The notes under the pieces were generated by a model, which saw only the letters and a list, made by a program, of their open reading frames with translations, searched no databases and was not told where the DNA came from. A DNA stretch of 37,549 bases from Deltaproteobacteria bacterium (GTDB lineage: Bacteria; Desulfobacterota; Syntrophobacteria; BM002): the NCBI GenBank assembly GCA_019309045.1, contig JAFDGZ010000024.1, forward strand, positions 1 to 37,549. The letters run 5' to 3'. Positions 15,869 to 37,549 of this stretch are shown one piece after another; position 1 is the stretch's first letter, and each line of letters starts with the position of its first letter. The translations under genes and the position numbers were made by a program.

Positions 15869-15942
15869 GCGTTCGTCACCACCTGCCAACCGAAAAGGGA
15901 ACCGCAGCCTGTTATACCGCAGACCAACCATAGGTGGCACTC

Positions 15943-18015
15943 ATGAACACAAGCATTATGAATGAAAAGGAAGAAGGCCTGGAGCTTGCCAGGAGGCTGG
16001 CTGAGGAAGAAGAAGGGGTGGGCAGACGACCGCGAGGACCTGCCAGATTTGTGATACCTACCATCGCAGTAATCTGGTCATTTTTCCAGCTTTCTATTGC
16101 CAGCTGGCTCATCCTCGATACCATCTTTGTGCGGGCAATTCATCTGGGTTTCGCCCTGTTGATTGTCTTTCTCAATTATCCCCTGTTCAAAAAGAGTCGC
16201 TTTGGCCTGAAGTTCCTTTCTGTCAAGGACAGGATCCCGCTGCTCGATTATGTCGTTGCCATCGTCGCTGCCTTTTCAGCCATATATATTGTACTCGATT
16301 TTGCCGGCATTACTACTCGCTACGGGGCACCCAGCACACGGGATATCGTCATTGGCATTGCCCTGACAGTGCTCCTGTTGGAGGCCTCGCGCCGGGTTAT
16401 TGGCCCGGCCCTGTCCGTGATTGCCCTGTTTTTCTGCGCTTATGCCTTCCTGGGCCCGTACATGCCGGAGATGATTGCCTTCAAAGGGGTTTCTCTGTCG
16501 CGCTTTATGGGCCAGATGACCATGTCCACTGAAGGCATCTACGGCATTCCCCTGGACGTGTCAGCCACCATCGTCTTTCTGTTTGTTCTTTTCGGAGCCA
16601 TGCTGGACAGGGCCGGAGCTGGGCAATATTTCATCAAGCTGGCGCTCAGCCTGCTGGGTGGCTTCAAAGGGGGGCCGGCCAAGGCTGCCGTTCTCGGCAG
16701 CGGCCTGACAGGTCTGGTATCAGGCTCCAGCATTGCCAATATTGTCACTACCGGCACCTTTACCATTCCCCTGATGAAAAAGGTGGGCTATCCGCCCACA
16801 AAGGCGGCAGCAGTGGAGGTTGCCGCCAGCACCGACGGTCAGCTGGCACCTCCCATTATGGGAGCAGCGGCCTTCATCATTGCCGAGTATGTCAACGTGC
16901 CCTATGTGGCGGTGATCAAGGCAGCAGCAATTCCTGCTTTTGCTTCATATGCGGCTCTTCTGTACATTACCCACATCGAAGCCTCAAAACTCGGTCTGCG
17001 AGGTATGCCTCGCAGTGAACTGCCGCCATTTTTCAAGACGCTTCTGGCAGGCGCTCACTATCTCCTGCCGCTGATATTCTTGCTCTACGAGCTGGTGATC
17101 ATCAGGCGCTCACCTGAACTGGCTGCCTTTCACGCCATCTGGCTGATGGCGGTGATCATGCTTTTTCAGAAGCCGATCAAAGCCTTGAAGAACAAGGAAT
17201 CCGTGGGTGCTGCTTTCAAGGAGGGCATCGTCGACATCTTAGCAGCCCTGGCAGCAGGCGGCAGGAACATGGTTGCCGTGGCCCTGGCCACCGCAGCCTC
17301 CGGCATCATAGTCGGCGTGGTGGCCATGGGACTTGGTGGCCTCATCACCCAGATCATTGACGTGCTCTCCGGCGGCAACATCTACCTCATGCTGGTCATC
17401 ACTGCTGGCGCCAGCCTGCTGATTGGTATGGGCCTGCCCACTACCGCCACCTACATTGTCATGGCCTCTCTTACTGCCCCTGCCATTGTGGAAATCGGCA
17501 GTATGTATGATTTTATTGTACCGTTGATGGCCGCCCACCTTTTCTGCTTCTACTTCGGCATCCTGGCCGACGATACTCCTCCGGTGGGACTTGCTGCCTA
17601 TGCTGCTGCAGCCATAGCCAAGTCGCCCCCCATTCCCACAGGCATTCAGGGATTCATGTATGATATTCGAACGGCGATTTTGCCCTTTATGTTCATCTTT
17701 AACAGCGATCTCATCCTGCACAATATCAACAGTTGGCCGGCGGGGCTGCTGATTTTTGTCATGGCGTGTGTGGGCAACTTTGCCTTTGCTTCGGCCACCC
17801 AGGGATGGTTTGTGGCCAAGAACAGGTTTTACGAAGTGCCGCTGCTGTTGTGTGTGACCTTTGTGCTCATGCGGCCCGACGCTATTGCCAAGCTGGTCGG
17901 CGTTGCCCACCAGCAGCGTTTCTGGATGTACCCCATTGGATTGGGCATTTTCGGTCTGATTTACCTGCTGCAGAGGCCGAGAACCCCCAAAGTTCCAGCC
18001 CCTGCCCCAGCCTAG
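15943..18015 (+). CDS. TRAP transporter permease, 4TM/12TM fusion (TAXI system), copy 1
   Basis: This is a 690-residue polytopic inner-membrane protein combining the small (DctQ-like) and large (DctM-like) TRAP subunits. The N-terminal 40 residues are charged and cytoplasmic, followed by many hydrophobic helices. Family-typical blocks are GPYMPEMIAFKGVSLSRFMG, GLVSGSSIANIVTTGTFTIP, AASTDGQLAPPIMGAAAFII, GMGLPTTATYIVMASLTAPA and GILADDTPPVGLAAYAAAAI. It uses the sodium or proton gradient to import the substrate captured by the TAXI receptor. The ATG at 15943 is preferred over the in-frame GTG at 15934 because AGGTGG (15932-15937) sits 5 nt before it and overlaps the GTG. It lies downstream of the terminator and repeat, so it may have its own promoter, which was not identified. 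Confidence 0.94.
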   Translation: MNTSIMNEKEEGLELARRLAEEEEGVGRRPRGPARFVIPTIAVIWSFFQLSIASWLILDTIFVRAIHLGFALLIVFLNYPLFKKSRFGLKFLSVKDRIPLLDYVVAIVAAFSAIYIVLDFAGITTRYGAPSTRDIVIGIALTVLLLEASRRVIGPALSVIALFFCAYAFLGPYMPEMIAFKGVSLSRFMGQMTMSTEGIYGIPLDVSATIVFLFVLFGAMLDRAGAGQYFIKLALSLLGGFKGGPAKAAVLGSGLTGLVSGSSIANIVTTGTFTIPLMKKVGYPPTKAAAVEVAASTDGQLAPPIMGAAAFIIAEYVNVPYVAVIKAAAIPAFASYAALLYITHIEASKLGLRGMPRSELPPFFKTLLAGAHYLLPLIFLLYELVIIRRSPELAAFHAIWLMAVIMLFQKPIKALKNKESVGAAFKEGIVDILAALAAGGRNMVAVALATAASGIIVGVVAMGLGGLITQIIDVLSGGNIYLMLVITAGASLLIGMGLPTTATYIVMASLTAPAIVEIGSMYDFIVPLMAAHLFCFYFGILADDTPPVGLAAYAAAAIAKSPPIPTGIQGFMYDIRTAILPFMFIFNSDLILHNINSWPAGLLIFVMACVGNFAFASATQGWFVAKNRFYEVPLLLCVTFVLMRPDAIAKLVGVAHQQRFWMYPIGLGIFGLIYLLQRPRTPKVPAPAPA

Positions 18016-20155: not shown

Positions 20156-22231
20156 ATGTTGGAAAAATTCGGTCTTGGCAGGAAAGAGAAAACCGCTGAG
20201 GAACTCTTGCGGGAAGAGACAGGTGATGTTCGCCGCCTGCGGCCTTTTGAGCGCTATCTGGTGGGTATTGTGGGCATATCCTGGGCACTGTACCAGCTGG
20301 CGCTGCCCAGCGTACTTGTTGTTGACAGTACTACAGAGAGAGCTGTGCACCTTACCTTTGCCATGACTCTACTTTTTCTCCTGATGCCCTGTGTGAAGCG
20401 ACCAGTGCGACGTCTACCCTTCCTGGGGGTTACCGACTACATTCCGGTTATTGACTATGTCTTTGCCATTGTCGGCGCATTTGCTGCACTCTACCTGGCC
20501 ATTTTCTATGAAGAGCTTGCCATGAGAGCAGGGGCGCCGACTACCACGGACGTCATTTCTGGCATCATCCTGGTGGTACTGTTGCTGGAGGCAACCAGGA
20601 GAATCATTGGTCCGGCGCTTTCCATTATTGCAATGGTCTTCACCCTGTATGCCTTCCTGGGCCCCTATATGCCCGACATTTTTGCCTTCAAAGGCGTATC
20701 ACTCACTAAATATCTAAGTAATATCAGTCTTTCCACGGAGGGCATTTACGGCATACCCTTGGGAGTCTCTTCTGCCATAGTATATCTTTTCGTGCTTCTG
20801 GGAGCCCTGCTGGACAAGGCAGGAGCAGGAAAATTTTTCACTGATCTGGCCCTCTCTTTTCTCGGCCGCTACAAGGGTGGAGCGGCCAAGGCCGCCGTAG
20901 TTGCCAGTGCGGCAACTGGATTGGTTTCAGGCTCCAGCATTGCCAACATCGTCACCACAGGACCTTTCACCATACCTTTGATGAAAAAAATTGGCTACCA
21001 TCCCAAAAAGGCTGCTGCAACCGAGGTGGCCGCCAGCACTGATGGTCAGTTGATGCCGCCCATAATGGGCGCGGCGGCCTTCATCATTGCCGAGTATGTC
21101 AATGTGCCCTATCTAGAGGTGGTCAAGGCTGCCGCCATTCCTGCCTTCGCCTCCTACTTTGGCCTCTTCTGTATCACCCATCTGGAGGCATCAAAGGCAG
21201 GCATCACTGGCCTGCCGCCGGAAGACATTCCAAATTTCCTGGATACGCTCAAGAATGGTCTTCACTATCTGGTTCCCCTCGGCGTGCTCATGTATGAACT
21301 GGTCTACCTGAGACACTCCCCCGAACTGGCTGCTTTCAGATCGATTATTCTTCTCCTGCTGGTGGTGTTTTATCAGGAAATACGACGGGCGTTCGCTGCC
21401 AAGACCAGCATAGGTGCTGCCCTGCTGAGCAGCGTTCGCATTATTGGCAGCGGTTTTATCCAGGGGTCGAAGAACATGATGTCTGTGGCCCTGGCCTGCG
21501 CTTCTGCTGGCATCATAGTGGGAGTGGTGAACATGGGCATCGGCGGCATGATCACTGGCTGGGTCGAGGTCCTCTCCATGGGCAATATCTTCCTCCTGCT
21601 GCTCATCACCGCTGTGGCAAGTCTGGTGATAGGCATGGGACTGCCCACCACCGCCACCTATATTGTCATGGCTTCTCTCACTGCGCCCATAATTGTGGAG
21701 GTGGGCTCGCTCTTCGATTTCATCATTCCTTTGATGGCTGCTCATCTCTTTTGCTTCTATTTCGGCATTCTGGCAGATGATACACCCCCTGTGGGCTTGG
21801 CCGCCTATGCTGCTGCGGCCATTGCCGAGTCGGAGCCCATTCCCACGGGCATCCAGGGGTTCAAATACGACATCAGAACCTCGTGCATTGCCTTTATGTT
21901 TGTATTCAACCCCGAATTAATCCTGCACAACATCAACACCTGGAGCCAGGGGTTGCTCATTTTCGGCATGGCCCTGATTGGCATGTCGTCTTTCGAGTGT
22001 TTTGCCCAGGGGTGGTGTCTGACCAAGAACAAGTGGTATGAGATTCCCTTTTTCCTGACAGCCTGGTTTATTCTGTTTCATCCAGGAGGTGTGGCCACCT
22101 TCTTCCATGTGGATCATGGCCTGCGCTATTATTTCTACCCCCTGGGTATTCTCATTTACGCTCTGGTTATAGGTTGGCAAAAACTGAGAATGAAATGGGC
22201 GGAGCGGGCACCACAGGTTTCAGGAGTTTAA
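20156..22231 (+). CDS. TRAP transporter permease, 4TM/12TM fusion (TAXI system), copy 2
   Basis: This is a 691-residue paralogue of the permease at 15943-18015. It has the same blocks in the same order: GPYMPDIFAFKGVSLTKYLS, GLVSGSSIANIVTTGPFTIP, AASTDGQLMPPIMGAAAFII, GMGLPTTATYIVMASLTAP and GILADDTPPVGLAAYAAAAI. The resemblance extends over essentially the whole length, pointing to a gene duplication. The N-terminal cytoplasmic segment differs (EELLREETGDVRRLRPFERY). No second binding-protein gene is adjacent, so it may share the receptor at 14619 or use one encoded elsewhere. A GAAGGA site precedes the ATG. It follows prmA by 114 bp and precedes icd by 63 bp. Confidence 0.94.
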   Translation: MLEKFGLGRKEKTAEELLREETGDVRRLRPFERYLVGIVGISWALYQLALPSVLVVDSTTERAVHLTFAMTLLFLLMPCVKRPVRRLPFLGVTDYIPVIDYVFAIVGAFAALYLAIFYEELAMRAGAPTTTDVISGIILVVLLLEATRRIIGPALSIIAMVFTLYAFLGPYMPDIFAFKGVSLTKYLSNISLSTEGIYGIPLGVSSAIVYLFVLLGALLDKAGAGKFFTDLALSFLGRYKGGAAKAAVVASAATGLVSGSSIANIVTTGPFTIPLMKKIGYHPKKAAATEVAASTDGQLMPPIMGAAAFIIAEYVNVPYLEVVKAAAIPAFASYFGLFCITHLEASKAGITGLPPEDIPNFLDTLKNGLHYLVPLGVLMYELVYLRHSPELAAFRSIILLLLVVFYQEIRRAFAAKTSIGAALLSSVRIIGSGFIQGSKNMMSVALACASAGIIVGVVNMGIGGMITGWVEVLSMGNIFLLLLITAVASLVIGMGLPTTATYIVMASLTAPIIVEVGSLFDFIIPLMAAHLFCFYFGILADDTPPVGLAAYAAAAIAESEPIPTGIQGFKYDIRTSCIAFMFVFNPELILHNINTWSQGLLIFGMALIGMSSFECFAQGWCLTKNKWYEIPFFLTAWFILFHPGGVATFFHVDHGLRYYFYPLGILIYALVIGWQKLRMKWAERAPQVSGV

Positions 22232-26059: not shown

Positions 26060-26479
26060 ATGAAGCTTTCTACCAGAGGCAGATACGGCACCCGCCTGAT
26101 GGTCGACCTTGCCAAGCACTATGACAATGGGCCTATCCCGCTGGGAGAGATCGCCAGACGGCAAAATCTATCGGTGAAATATCTCGAACAATTGATTATT
26201 CCTCTGAAGGCTTCTGGTCTGATCAGCAGTGTGCGTGGGGCCCGGGGGGGGTACCGGCTGGCCCTTGCCCCAGCGGAGATCAGCGTGGGCCAGGTAATAG
26301 AAGTTCTTGAAGGCGATCTGTCACTGGTGGATTGTGTCAAGACCCCGGAGCTGTGTGATCGTCATCAGGAGTGCCCCACCAGAGATGTCTGGCAAACCAT
26401 GAGTAATGTCCTGAGAGAGAAGCTATTTGCCCTGACACTGGAGAATGTTCTCCTAGGAGCAAAGCTCCCTGGGGACTAG
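26060..26479 (+). CDS. Rrf2-family transcriptional regulator (IscR-like, Fe-S type)
   Basis: This is a 139-residue winged-helix regulator. KLSTRGRYGTRLMVDLA is the family opening, the recognition-helix region is LSVKYLEQLIIPLKASGL, and the wing is VRGARGGYRLA. Cys92, Cys99 and Cys105 closely match the spacing of the three Fe-S ligands of IscR (92, 98, 104), so a redox- or iron-sensing cluster is likely. GAGAG lies about 6 nt before the ATG. No isc, suf or sulfur-metabolism genes adjoin it, so its regulon cannot be read from the context. Confidence 0.93.
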   Translation: MKLSTRGRYGTRLMVDLAKHYDNGPIPLGEIARRQNLSVKYLEQLIIPLKASGLISSVRGARGGYRLALAPAEISVGQVIEVLEGDLSLVDCVKTPELCDRHQECPTRDVWQTMSNVLREKLFALTLENVLLGAKLPGD

Positions 26480-26634: not shown

Positions 26635-26665
26635 TTGACAGGACTTCCCTGCTTCGATGTGTAAA
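26635..26665 (+). promoter_or_regulatory. Possible promoter of the ABM-domain gene
   Basis: A perfect TTGACA (26635-26640) is followed after 19 nt by TGTAAA (26660-26665), four of six to the -10 consensus. The spacing is long and the -10 weak, so this is a tentative call. It lies about 100 bp before the start at 26762. Confidence 0.3.
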
Positions 26666-26761
26666 GAAAGTGTGTTATATTCGAACACAAGGGAGGATCT
26701 AGATAAGTCTGGCCGTCTCGAGGAGAAAGATCATCGCCATTCAGAAGGAAGGAGGGAAGTG

Positions 26762-27052
26762 ATGGCCGTGCGAGTGCTGATCCAGAGAAAGATTATACCC
26801 GGCAATGAGGTGGCCCTCGGTGAACTTCTCATGCAACTGCGGAGCAAAGCAATGCACGCTGCCGGCTATATATCAGGTGAAACCCTGCGAGCTCTAGATG
26901 ACCCAAACGAGTATCTGGTGATCAGTACCTGGAACAGTCTGGACAACTGGAAGAGCTGGGAGTCCAATAAAGAACGCCAGGAAATACAGCAAAAAATCGA
27001 CAGCCTGCTGCGGGCGCCTTCGCTTCATCGGGTTTTTGTATACGAGTACTGA
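26762..27052 (+). CDS. ABM-domain (antibiotic biosynthesis monooxygenase-like) small protein
   Basis: This is a 96-residue protein with the dimeric ferredoxin-like fold pattern of ABM proteins: VRVLIQRKIIPGNEVALGEL, then AAGYISGETLRALDDPNEYLVI and STWNSLDNWKSWESN, ending in FVYEY. The frame is open from 26657, but ATG 26762 follows a strong AAGGAGGGAAG site and matches the family start. Family members include quinol monooxygenases, haem oxygenases and uncharacterised proteins; the substrate cannot be assigned. The gene converges on queH with only 20 bp between them. Confidence 0.85.
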   Translation: MAVRVLIQRKIIPGNEVALGELLMQLRSKAMHAAGYISGETLRALDDPNEYLVISTWNSLDNWKSWESNKERQEIQQKIDSLLRAPSLHRVFVYEY

Positions 27053-27072: not shown

Positions 27073-27597
27073 TCAGATGAACCTTTCCTGTTCACTGTAG
27101 ATACAGCCGCAGTAAAGCTGCCGGTAGAGACCGAGCTCCTTTGATTTTTCAATGCCCTCTTGCCATCCCTCGCGAAAGTCCCGGTAGAGAAAGGCCACGC
27201 CGTATCGGCGGCTCGCCTCCTCGCCTATCTCTCTGACCAGGTCATGCTTCTGGTGCTTGCTGTAAAGCAAGGTAGTGGTAAAAGCGGACATGCGACTTTT
27301 TTTAGCCAGTCGCGCCGCAGCATGGAGCCTTAAGTGATAGCAGTAGTGGCAGCGCTGCGATTCGCGGAATACCACCTGCCTGAGAAAGGACACCACGTCG
27401 TATTCATCTCTGTAGATAACTTTAAGAGTTGCTTTTTCTGCATATTGTCTGACTGTATCTCTCCGCCGCTGATATTCCTGGTAAGGATGAATGTTTGGAT
27501 TGAAGAAAAAACCAAAGACCTCGTGCCCCTCGTGCCGGAGAGTTCGGAGAGGGTAGAGAGCGCATGGGGCACAGCACATGTGAAGAAGTACTTTCAC
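27073..27597 (-). CDS. queH: Epoxyqueuosine reductase QueH
   Basis: This is a 174-residue protein of the former DUF208 family. QueH reduces epoxyqueuosine to queuosine in tRNA and replaces QueG without cobalamin. The N-terminal LLHMCCAPCALYPL has Cys8, Cys9 and Cys12. FFFNPNIHPYQEYQRR follows, then RCHYCYHLRL (Cys83, Cys86) and LYCGCIYSEQER near the end. These match the conserved ligands of the 4Fe-4S cluster and adjacent metal site described for QueH. The start is GTG at 27597 with a weak ribosome binding site. It begins 46 bp after the flavoprotein gene on the same strand and is probably cotranscribed with it. Confidence 0.95.
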   Translation of the reverse strand: MKVLLHMCCAPCALYPLRTLRHEGHEVFGFFFNPNIHPYQEYQRRRDTVRQYAEKATLKVIYRDEYDVVSFLRQVVFRESQRCHYCYHLRLHAAARLAKKSRMSAFTTTLLYSKHQKHDLVREIGEEASRRYGVAFLYRDFREGWQEGIEKSKELGLYRQLYCGCIYSEQERFI

Positions 27598-27643: not shown

Positions 27644-28972
27644 TCATTTGAGCAGTTGTTGCGCGGCGATGTGTATAGGGTCCCAGGCGCCTGAGAATGG
27701 TGGGGCGTAGGCCAGATCCATATAAGCCAGCTGTTCCAGCTCGAGCCCTGCTGTGAGAGCTGCTGCCAGTATGTTGATCCTGGCGACTACTCCATTGCCC
27801 CCTATGGCCTGCGCCCCGAGGAGGCGGCCGCTGGATGGCTCCGCTACAAGCCGCAGCCACAGTCTAGTTGCTCCAGGAAAACTGTGTGCCTTCGAAAAGC
27901 CCTGGATGATAACAGAAGAGGCCTGCAGGCCGATTCTCTTTGCCTCTTCCTCGCTGAGACCAGTACTGGCAATCTCCAGGTCAAATACTTTGCAACAGAT
28001 TGAACCTACAATTCCTGGAAAGGAGACCTCCTGGCCGCCGATGTGAGCTCCAGCAATGCGGCCCTGTTTATTGGCAATGTCGCCCAGTGGCATGTGTACG
28101 GGCTGACGGCTGACAAGGTGTAGACACTCGCAACAGTCTCCTGCCGCATATATCCGGGAGATGTTGGTCTGCAGGTGTTGGTCTACCGCAATTGCCCCAG
28201 TTGGGCCTATCTTGATGCCAGCAGCCGCTGCGAGTTCAACTTCTGGCAGCACACCCATGCCCACAAGGACCAGATCGCTGGGCAGCTCTCCATTATTGGT
28301 GTGGGTGACAATCTGGTGCTTGCCAACTTTATCGAAACCCAATATCTCCGTATGGGGAAGGAAATAGACATTATTTCGTTCAAGTTCTTGCCGTATTTTC
28401 TCGCCGAAGTCTGTGCCCAACCGCCTCATGGGCAGGTCCTTGCGGTAGACGAGTGTGGTTTCCAGTCCCAGCGATCTGAAGGCCTCACACATTTCCAAAG
28501 CGATCAGACCAGCGCCTATGACCAGGGCTCTTGTAGCATTATGTTCAATGAGGTAGCGTTTTAGACGTATAGCGTTGGCAACATTTCTCAGGGTGAAGAT
28601 CCCCTGGTGAGCCACGCCAGGCACCTGTGGTAGCCGTGGGCGGGCGCCGGTAGCCAGTACCAGGTAATCGAAGGGCATCACATGGCCATCGCCAAGTCGA
28701 ACTTGACGTGAATCGAGTTCGAGGGTCTCCACGCGGCTGTGGAGTTTAACTGTGATGCCTGATTTTGCAAAAGCCTCCGGTGTCCTGGCAATGAGTTTGC
28801 TCTCGTCTCTGATTACATCACCGATGTAATAAGGGGTAGGTCAGGCAGAAAAGGAAACGTGCTCGCCGCCTTCGATTATGGTGACCTCCATATCCGGCTG
28901 GACTCTTTTTGCTTTTGCTGCTGCACTGGGACCGCCAGCGCCGCCTCCCACCACCACGAGTCTTTGTTGCAT
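27644..28972 (-). CDS. Predicted selenoprotein: CoA-disulfide reductase/NADH oxidase-family flavoprotein with in-frame UGA as Sec44
   Basis: Reading from ATG 28972 (AGGAGA about 8 nt upstream) and through one UGA at codon 44 (28843-28841) gives 442 residues, the length of single-domain CoA-disulfide reductases and NADH oxidases. The N-terminus LVVVGGGAGGPSAAAKAKR is the FAD-binding site. SFSA-U-PTPYYIG follows, where the family has Cys-Gly-Leu-Pro-Tyr-Tyr, so U occupies the redox-active Cys42/43 position. ALVIGAGLIALEMCEAF is the NAD(P)H-binding fold, IYAAGDCCE the second FAD site, and YAPPFSGAWDPI the typical C-terminal end. No rhodanese domain is present. Apart from the UGA the frame is intact and a SECIS-like hairpin follows it. 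The likely role is NAD(P)H-dependent reduction of CoA disulfide, polysulfide, sulfur or peroxide. A start after the UGA would lose the whole FAD-binding N-terminus. Confidence 0.88.
28809..28833 (-). promoter_or_regulatory. Bacterial SECIS-like hairpin downstream of the in-frame UGA
   Basis: On the mRNA, AUUACAUC (28830-28823), apical loop GGU (28822-28820) and GAUGUAAU (28819-28812) form a perfect 8-bp stem. Two further pairs extend it below one mismatch. The loop begins 18 nt after the UGA (28843-28841). A G in the first two loop positions and a UGA-to-loop distance of about 16-37 nt are the accepted features of bacterial SECIS elements recognised by SelB; both are met. The element lies within the coding sequence, as in E. 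coli fdhF. Confidence 0.82.
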
Positions 28973-29030
28973 GAAGGATCTCCTATCTTTGCCTCTGACT
29001 GCTTTGAATCAGCCTTTTGTACTCCGATTT

Positions 29031-36559: not shown

Positions 36560-37029
36560 GAAACGGGCATCGTAGCCGTAGCGGTAGCCGAGCTCCCCGG
36601 GCGGTGGTGCCTGGCAGGAAGGCCTGCTCTGCAAAGAACATAGTCGCGTATACAAGCTCTCATCACCCATAACTCGCCTACTGCGACCTGAAATATGACT
36701 ATCCTTCCGGGCGTCCTCGGTCCTCGCCCCCTGCGACGTACTATTCAAGTACGCCTTCGAGTTCGAGTCCCTGCGATTGCCCGGTGGCACAGCCATCTTT
36801 CAGGTCTCGTCACGGAGAGTCATGGGAGATGAGAGCTTAAGGTAGCCTCAGTTGATCTCTAGGTAAGTCATGTTTCCATAATAACCTCGGCTCTTCTGGT
36901 AGCGGGTAATGAGTTGTCGGTGGCTCCGAATGTTCTTTGCTCCCCAGGCATTCCTGCCATCACAGCACGAGGTTTTTCCGATGAGTTTTGCCGGTCAGAT
37001 GAATTGACCGAAAGCCGTGGCCGCCAGCC
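36560..37029 (+). repeat. 470-bp direct tandem repeat, unit A
   Basis: This unit aligns without gaps to 37030-37499. The first half is nearly identical; the second half diverges slightly more. It contains a CGTACT/AGTACG hairpin (36737-36742 with 36748-36753). No convincing gene is present; a minus-strand open frame exists only because the repeat lacks stops there. Confidence 0.85.
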
Positions 37030-37499
37030 GAAACGGGCATCGTAACCCTGGCCGTATCCGAGTTCTCCGGGCGGAGGTGCCTGGCAGGAAGGTCTGCTCC
37101 GCAAAGAACATAGTCGCAAATACAAGCTCTCATCACCCACAACTCGCCTACTGCGACCTGAAATATGACTATCCTTCCGGGCGTCCTCGGTCCTCGCCCC
37201 CTGCGACGTACTATACAAGTACGCCTTCGGGTTCGAGTCCCTGCGATTGCCCGGTGGCACAGCCATCTTTCAGGTCTCGTCACGGAGAGTCATGGGAGAT
37301 GAGAGCTTAAGGTAGCCGCAGTTGGCCTCTGGGTAAGGCATGTTTTCATATCAACCTCGGCTGTTCTCTTAGCGGTTAATGAGTTGCCGGTGGCTCCGAA
37401 TGTTCTTTGCTCCGCAGTCATTCCTCCCATCACAGCACGAAGTTTTTCCGATGAGTTCTCCCGGCCAAGTGGATTGACCGAAAGCCGTGGCCGCCAGCC
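37030..37499 (+). repeat. 470-bp direct tandem repeat, unit B
   Basis: This is the second unit, at a period of exactly 470 bp. It carries the same CGTACT/AGTACG hairpin (37207-37212 with 37218-37223), with a single change in the loop (ATTCA to ATACA) and conserved arms. Confidence 0.85.
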
Positions 37500-37549
37500 G
37501 AAACGGGCCTCGTAACCCTGGCCGCAGCCGAGTTTCCCGGGCGGAGAGA
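37500..37549 (+). repeat. 470-bp direct tandem repeat, unit C (partial)
   Basis: The first 50 bp of a third unit run to the window edge, so the array continues beyond it. The start matches units A and B (GAAACGGGC, then TCGTA) with a few substitutions. Confidence 0.75.

Follow-up and report, generated by a model that had tools for sequence, protein, structure and literature searches.

A probable selenoprotein of the CoA-disulfide reductase/NADH oxidase type and a candidate new selenocysteine subfamily of wide occurrence in its phylum

The window, i.e., the whole 37,549-nucleotide stretch of DNA analysed here, carries on its minus strand a gene for a 442-residue FAD flavoprotein of the CoA-disulfide reductase (CoADR)/NADH oxidase type, which, judged from its sequence and those of its relatives, is almost certainly a functional bacterial selenoprotein, with the UGA at codon 44 read as selenocysteine (Sec). 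This reading restores a gene whose FAD-binding and catalytic N-terminus is cut off by standard annotation: as the earlier note had foreseen, a standard ORF call starts past the UGA and yields only a 362-aa fragment beginning at GTG 28732. The coordinates of the gene, its signals and its neighbours are collected in Table 1.

Table 1. Features of the window around the predicted selenoprotein gene
Feature	Coordinates	Strand	Remarks
Predicted selenoprotein CDS, 442 aa, CoA-disulfide reductase/NADH oxidase-type FAD flavoprotein	27644..28972	-	stop TGA 27646-27644
In-frame UGA, predicted Sec44, catalytic Cys position	28841..28843	-	codon 44; TGA 71/Cys 52 in 123 rows
Ribosome binding site AGGAG	28980..28984	-	7 nt 5' of ATG
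Putative bSECIS upper stem-loop AUUACAUC-GGU-GAUGUAAU	28812..28830	-	apical loop 18 nt past UGA
QueH (epoxyqueuosine reductase family)	27073..27597	-	PF02677, 218 bits; directly downstream of Sec gene
ABM-domain protein, conserved neighbour	26657..27052	+
Rrf2-family regulator, conserved neighbour	26060..26479	+

Translation from ATG 28972 agrees with the frame described before, in that the 442 codons contain a single TGA, and the good ribosome binding site claimed for it was found as an AGGAG motif. The two flanks of the TGA had been assigned to one protein family, and this holds: along the protein Pfam places Pyr_redox_2 (residues 4–288), Pyr_redox and Pyr_redox_dim, in this order, and the best PDB match in a phmmer search, 6ruz, aligns over residues 2–439, so that both Pyr_redox_2 and the 6ruz alignment span codon 44. 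A Cys of 6ruz stands opposite residue 44, and the column of this residue in a 123-row alignment of homologues holds Sec or Cys in all 123 rows and nothing else, as expected if the UGA replaces the catalytic Cys of the family. The position named in the earlier note was thereby upheld, but not the Cys-Gly-Leu-Pro-Tyr-Tyr context given for it: the local motif is U-P-T-P-Y-Y, and the nearest Cys orthologues have C-P-T-P-Y-Y.

Full-length homologues 63–68% identical to the window protein were found in 10 genomes of the same family, each interrupted only once, by a TGA at residue 44, while in an 11th the TGA lies on a 77-residue fragment at a contig end (L053). A sample of 395 genomes of the phylum provided many further homologues, in both TGA and Cys forms, and a search of named genomes gave orthologues from Smithella and Syntrophaceae with CPTPYYIG. 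These data bear on the possibility that the TGA is a nonsense change at an ordinary Cys codon, owing to pseudogene formation or a base-call error. A lone premature stop in an intact gene can look alike, and the window does come from a draft assembly; nevertheless, such an origin is hardly credible, given the recurrence of the TGA in the 10 same-family genomes and in 71 rows of the tree, the intact frame with the family conserved on both sides, and an RNA hairpin which is under selection.

The hairpin, absent from the earlier note, starts 10 nt 3' of the UGA and has an 8-bp stem and a GGU loop. It passes all four published criteria for a bSECIS element (PMC13188914), namely a loop of 3–9 nt with G in the first two positions (3 nt here), a stem of 4–16 bp (8 bp), a distance of 16–37 nt from the UGA (18 nt), and an MFE not above -7.5 (-8.2 kcal/mol over 48 nt). 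No Rfam family was matched in a search of the window. Folded singly, the hairpin is only moderately better than shuffled sequences (z -1.5), and the case for a SECIS element therefore rests on conservation. Among 39 distinct Sec sequences pairing is retained in 98.7% of cells, with both-sided changes at three stem pairs (U-A to C-G twice and C-G to U-A once), and the covariation score is 0.135 against 0.073 ± 0.010 in shuffles (0/500), which ignore relatedness, and pairing is 13–68% in slid controls, which do not. Two of the compensations alter amino acids: Tyr to His in L120 (CAC...GTG) and Val to Ile in L108 (TAT...ATA).

Codon usage in the stem points the same way. Val53 is encoded by GTA in 39 of 41 Sec sequences, compared with 11% of the Val codons elsewhere in the same genes, and, counted by family, there is GTA only at Val53 in 12 of 14 (binomial 3.5e-10). 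Ile50 is always ATC and Asp52 is GAT in 40/41, while the Gly codon of the loop is unconstrained, with all four third bases occurring. In the 16 Cys orthologues, on the other hand, pairing at the three most telling stem positions falls to 38%, 56% and 56%, a decay seen where the orthologues of Smithella and its relatives code for Cys.

The Sec machinery, which the earlier note proposed to look for, is all present in the genome of the window (G000, contig C24): a tRNA-Sec match (74.8 bits), SelA (621 bits), SelB (397 bits), and SelD (371 bits), the last with an in-frame TGA of its own, so that the selD gene (L131, G000:C39:27299-28225) is itself a selenoprotein candidate. Co-occurrence with SelB was considered as evidence and discarded as uninformative, SelB being found in 353 of the 395 genomes of the phylum sample and at about the same rate in TGA-bearing ones (about 49 of 55 listed, by hand count; the exceptions are MAGs of 76–94% completeness). 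An open frame would also result if TGA were a sense codon, as in a recoded genome where TGA stands for Trp or another amino acid, or with leaky read-through that involves no selenium. Either case is most improbable, since the gene itself ends in TGA, which indicates that this host still terminates translation at TGA, the homologues have Cys and never Trp in the column, the genome has the Sec machinery, and the SECIS-like stem decays in sequences with TGC or TGT at this codon. The claim of Sec insertion at codon 44 is thus strongly supported by the column, the machinery and the SECIS element. Two of the refuting conditions named in the earlier note, a genome lacking the sel genes and unrelated residues at position 44, are contradicted by these results. 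We infer that SelB and Sec-tRNA(Sec) would read UGA 44 as Sec, directed by the stem-loop 18 nt downstream.

In a quick tree of the 123 rows (SH-aLRT support, the root of the wider tree not inferred) the window gene falls in an 11-row clade (support 99) nested in a clade of 59 rows (support 99). The latter comprises 43 Sec and 16 Cys sequences spread over 14 families, and its motifs include UPTP, UPMP, UETP, UELP, UDLP, UEVP, USEP and ULMP. Sequences of the UGxP type form a separate clade of 17 rows, in which UGIP and UGMP prevail and some UAxP and USIP occur. At least four Sec/Cys changes are required within the 59-row clade. A single origin of its Cys members was rejected (AU test, p 7e-62), for a grouping that was named after the tree had been seen and on a quick tree. 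Since the Cys rows sit inside groups of Sec rows, it is simplest to assume that Sec reverted to Cys several times and was perhaps regained once; such reversions appear to have occurred, their direction not being proved on an uninferred root. Selenium and sulfur seem to have been switched several times, with the RNA signal switching along. As to the whole picture—a large Sec subfamily, U[P/E/S/D/L]xP, missing from the catalogues, widespread in the phylum and ancestrally Sec, with several Cys reversions and hairpin decay after each—the chances for and against it are about even.

SelB is still present in the tested Smithella-type Cys genomes. The Cys orthologue L106 comes from a genome (G240) which is 97% complete and has no SelB over the cut-off, while its sister L105 is a Sec form; this is likely to be a Sec-to-Cys change plus loss of the machinery. 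Both forms are found in genome G070, with a Sec copy (L108, UPTP) and a Cys copy (L135, CPTP). If the proposed history is true, the subfamily counters the view of Sec-to-Cys substitutions in bacteria as rare and mostly confined to FdhA and SelD, held in the 2026 review, and constitutes a natural series for gauging what a flavin disulfide/persulfide reductase gains from selenium. Sec/Cys orthologue pairs, such as the two in G070, lend themselves to a clean test of the reasons for which bacteria retain or lose selenium in a flavin-dependent reductase.

A third, distant Sec subtype of the flavoprotein family (L047-L052, ca. 30% identity) was noticed in two families, that of the window included (G001:C173, G006:C68, G032:C21, G035:C62, G040:C133 and G037:C149). 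It has the motif R-U-A-L-P-H-V-V-A-G, which is missing from the table of the 2026 catalogue, and a hairpin past the UGA, but no YAPPF element. Additional cysteines were compared across the rows as possible partners of Sec, and none of them tracks it: C280 also occurs in most of the Cys paralogues, C281 is nearly limited to the 59-row clade, with its Cys members included, and C162 and C326 are invariant in the family of the window only.

As regards function, the best NCBIfam model is that of CoA-disulfide reductase, TIGR03385, with 409.6 bits, which is below its curated cut-off of 578.8. The AlphaFold2 model (mean pLDDT 83.4), which puts residue 44 shortly ahead of a short helix (46–50), is closest to the CoADR-type structures 6ruz, 5l1n, 4fx9 and 8a56. 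The protein thus combines the CoADR fold with a lone putative catalytic chalcogen at residue 44 and P-Y at 47–48, and it keeps the YAPPF element found across CoADR-type relatives, while the tyrosines of the HYYPG motif of 6ruz are replaced by Ser364-Phe365. In related enzymes a single Cys, together with bound CoA, serves in the NAD(P)H-dependent reduction of di-, per- and polysulfides (PMC6026696, PMC7969121), and by homology Sec44 should fill the role of this Cys.

The product would be an FAD-containing homodimer of the CoA-disulfide reductase/CoA-persulfide reductase type, in which electrons pass from NAD(P)H to FAD and on to Sec44, the only catalytic chalcogen next to the flavin; Sec44 would then reduce a disulfide, persulfide or polysulfide that is either CoA-linked or of low molecular weight, probably via a Sec-Se-S-CoA intermediate. 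Cofactor chemistry, substrate, use of CoA and dimerisation are all predictions from this analysis, and Sec might, as suggested in the earlier note, make the enzyme a more reactive reductase of disulfides, polysulfides or peroxide. Alternatively, a Sec-containing NADH peroxidase or NADH oxidase with a Sec-SeOH cycle could protect an anaerobe from O2 or H2O2. In its favour, the fold and the lone catalytic Cys are also those of NADH peroxidases and oxidases, the top-scoring PDB entry in the sequence search bears the name of NADH oxidase, Sec is common in peroxidases, and the conserved neighbours include an Rrf2 regulator. This alternative is nonetheless rather unlikely, as the models and structures of CoADR and CoA-persulfide reductase score highest, the structures of NADH peroxidase and water-forming Nox lie lower (E about 1e-40 vs 1e-48), and the YAPPF element of the CoADR-type relatives is retained. 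Disulfide/persulfide reductase chemistry is, on this analysis, the probable function.

Each of the 10 same-family genomes that carry a full-length Sec gene has QueH as the next gene on the same strand, with the ABM gene beyond it and, in the longer loci, the Rrf2 gene next after ABM. The Sec gene and queH are separated by 46 nt, which suggests co-transcription, and they are likely to be co-transcribed; a functional link between them is a conjecture. No QueH was seen near the more distant Sec homologues, for which mostly short flanks were examined, and the arrangement is conserved only within the family of the window. Elsewhere in the window, two similar large membrane-protein genes lie close together (15934-18015 and 20156-22231) and both correspond to one neighbour gene of related genomes, which suggests a local duplication, while a tandem repeat with a 470-bp unit (36560-37546; 2.1 copies, 91% match) reaches the contig end.

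The Sec kind of this flavoprotein is not new, having been predicted in 2004–2006. The Sec form was listed in 2006 as NADH oxidase, with one member from Geobacter metallireducens (PMC1794560), and entered a 2022 catalogue as CoA-disulfide reductase; Table 1 of the 2026 catalogue (PMC13188914) gives it as an FAD-dependent oxidoreductase (CoA-disulfide reductase, NADH oxidase) with TIGR03385, the motif UGxP and WP_011365774.1, citing Kryukov and Gladyshev 2004. The window protein shares with WP_011365774.1 the flavoprotein family, the Sec position and the phylum, but has UPTP instead of UGxP and belongs to a separate, well-supported clade with UP/UE/US/UD/UL-x-P; the hairpin sequence of the UGxP-type clade is also unlike that of the window gene. 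By the convention of the 2026 review, it qualifies as a candidate new subfamily on account of its different motif, its placement in a clade apart and its broad distribution. The Sec form reaches well past the published motif, and searches based on UGxP would miss much of it in the phylum.

Among characterised proteins, the NADH-dependent CoA disulfide reductase/NADH oxidase of Thermus thermophilus (6ruz) is the best match in both sequence and fold over the full length, yet it has Cys in a C-G-L-P context where the window protein would have Sec in U-P-T-P. The CoA disulfide/CoA-persulfide reductase of Pyrococcus horikoshii (4fx9, 5l1n; PMC6026696) is alike in its single catalytic residue, length of ca. 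440 aa, lack of a rhodanese domain and fold, but works through Cys-S-S-CoA chemistry, while Sec would give an Se-S-CoA intermediate. The NADH-dependent persulfide reductase Npsr (6pfz, 3nta; PMC7969121) has a homologous FAD domain and the C-terminal rhodanese domain that marks the Npsr/CoADR-RHD type, whereas the window protein ends at residue 442 and Pfam matched no rhodanese domain in it, so it is not an Npsr.
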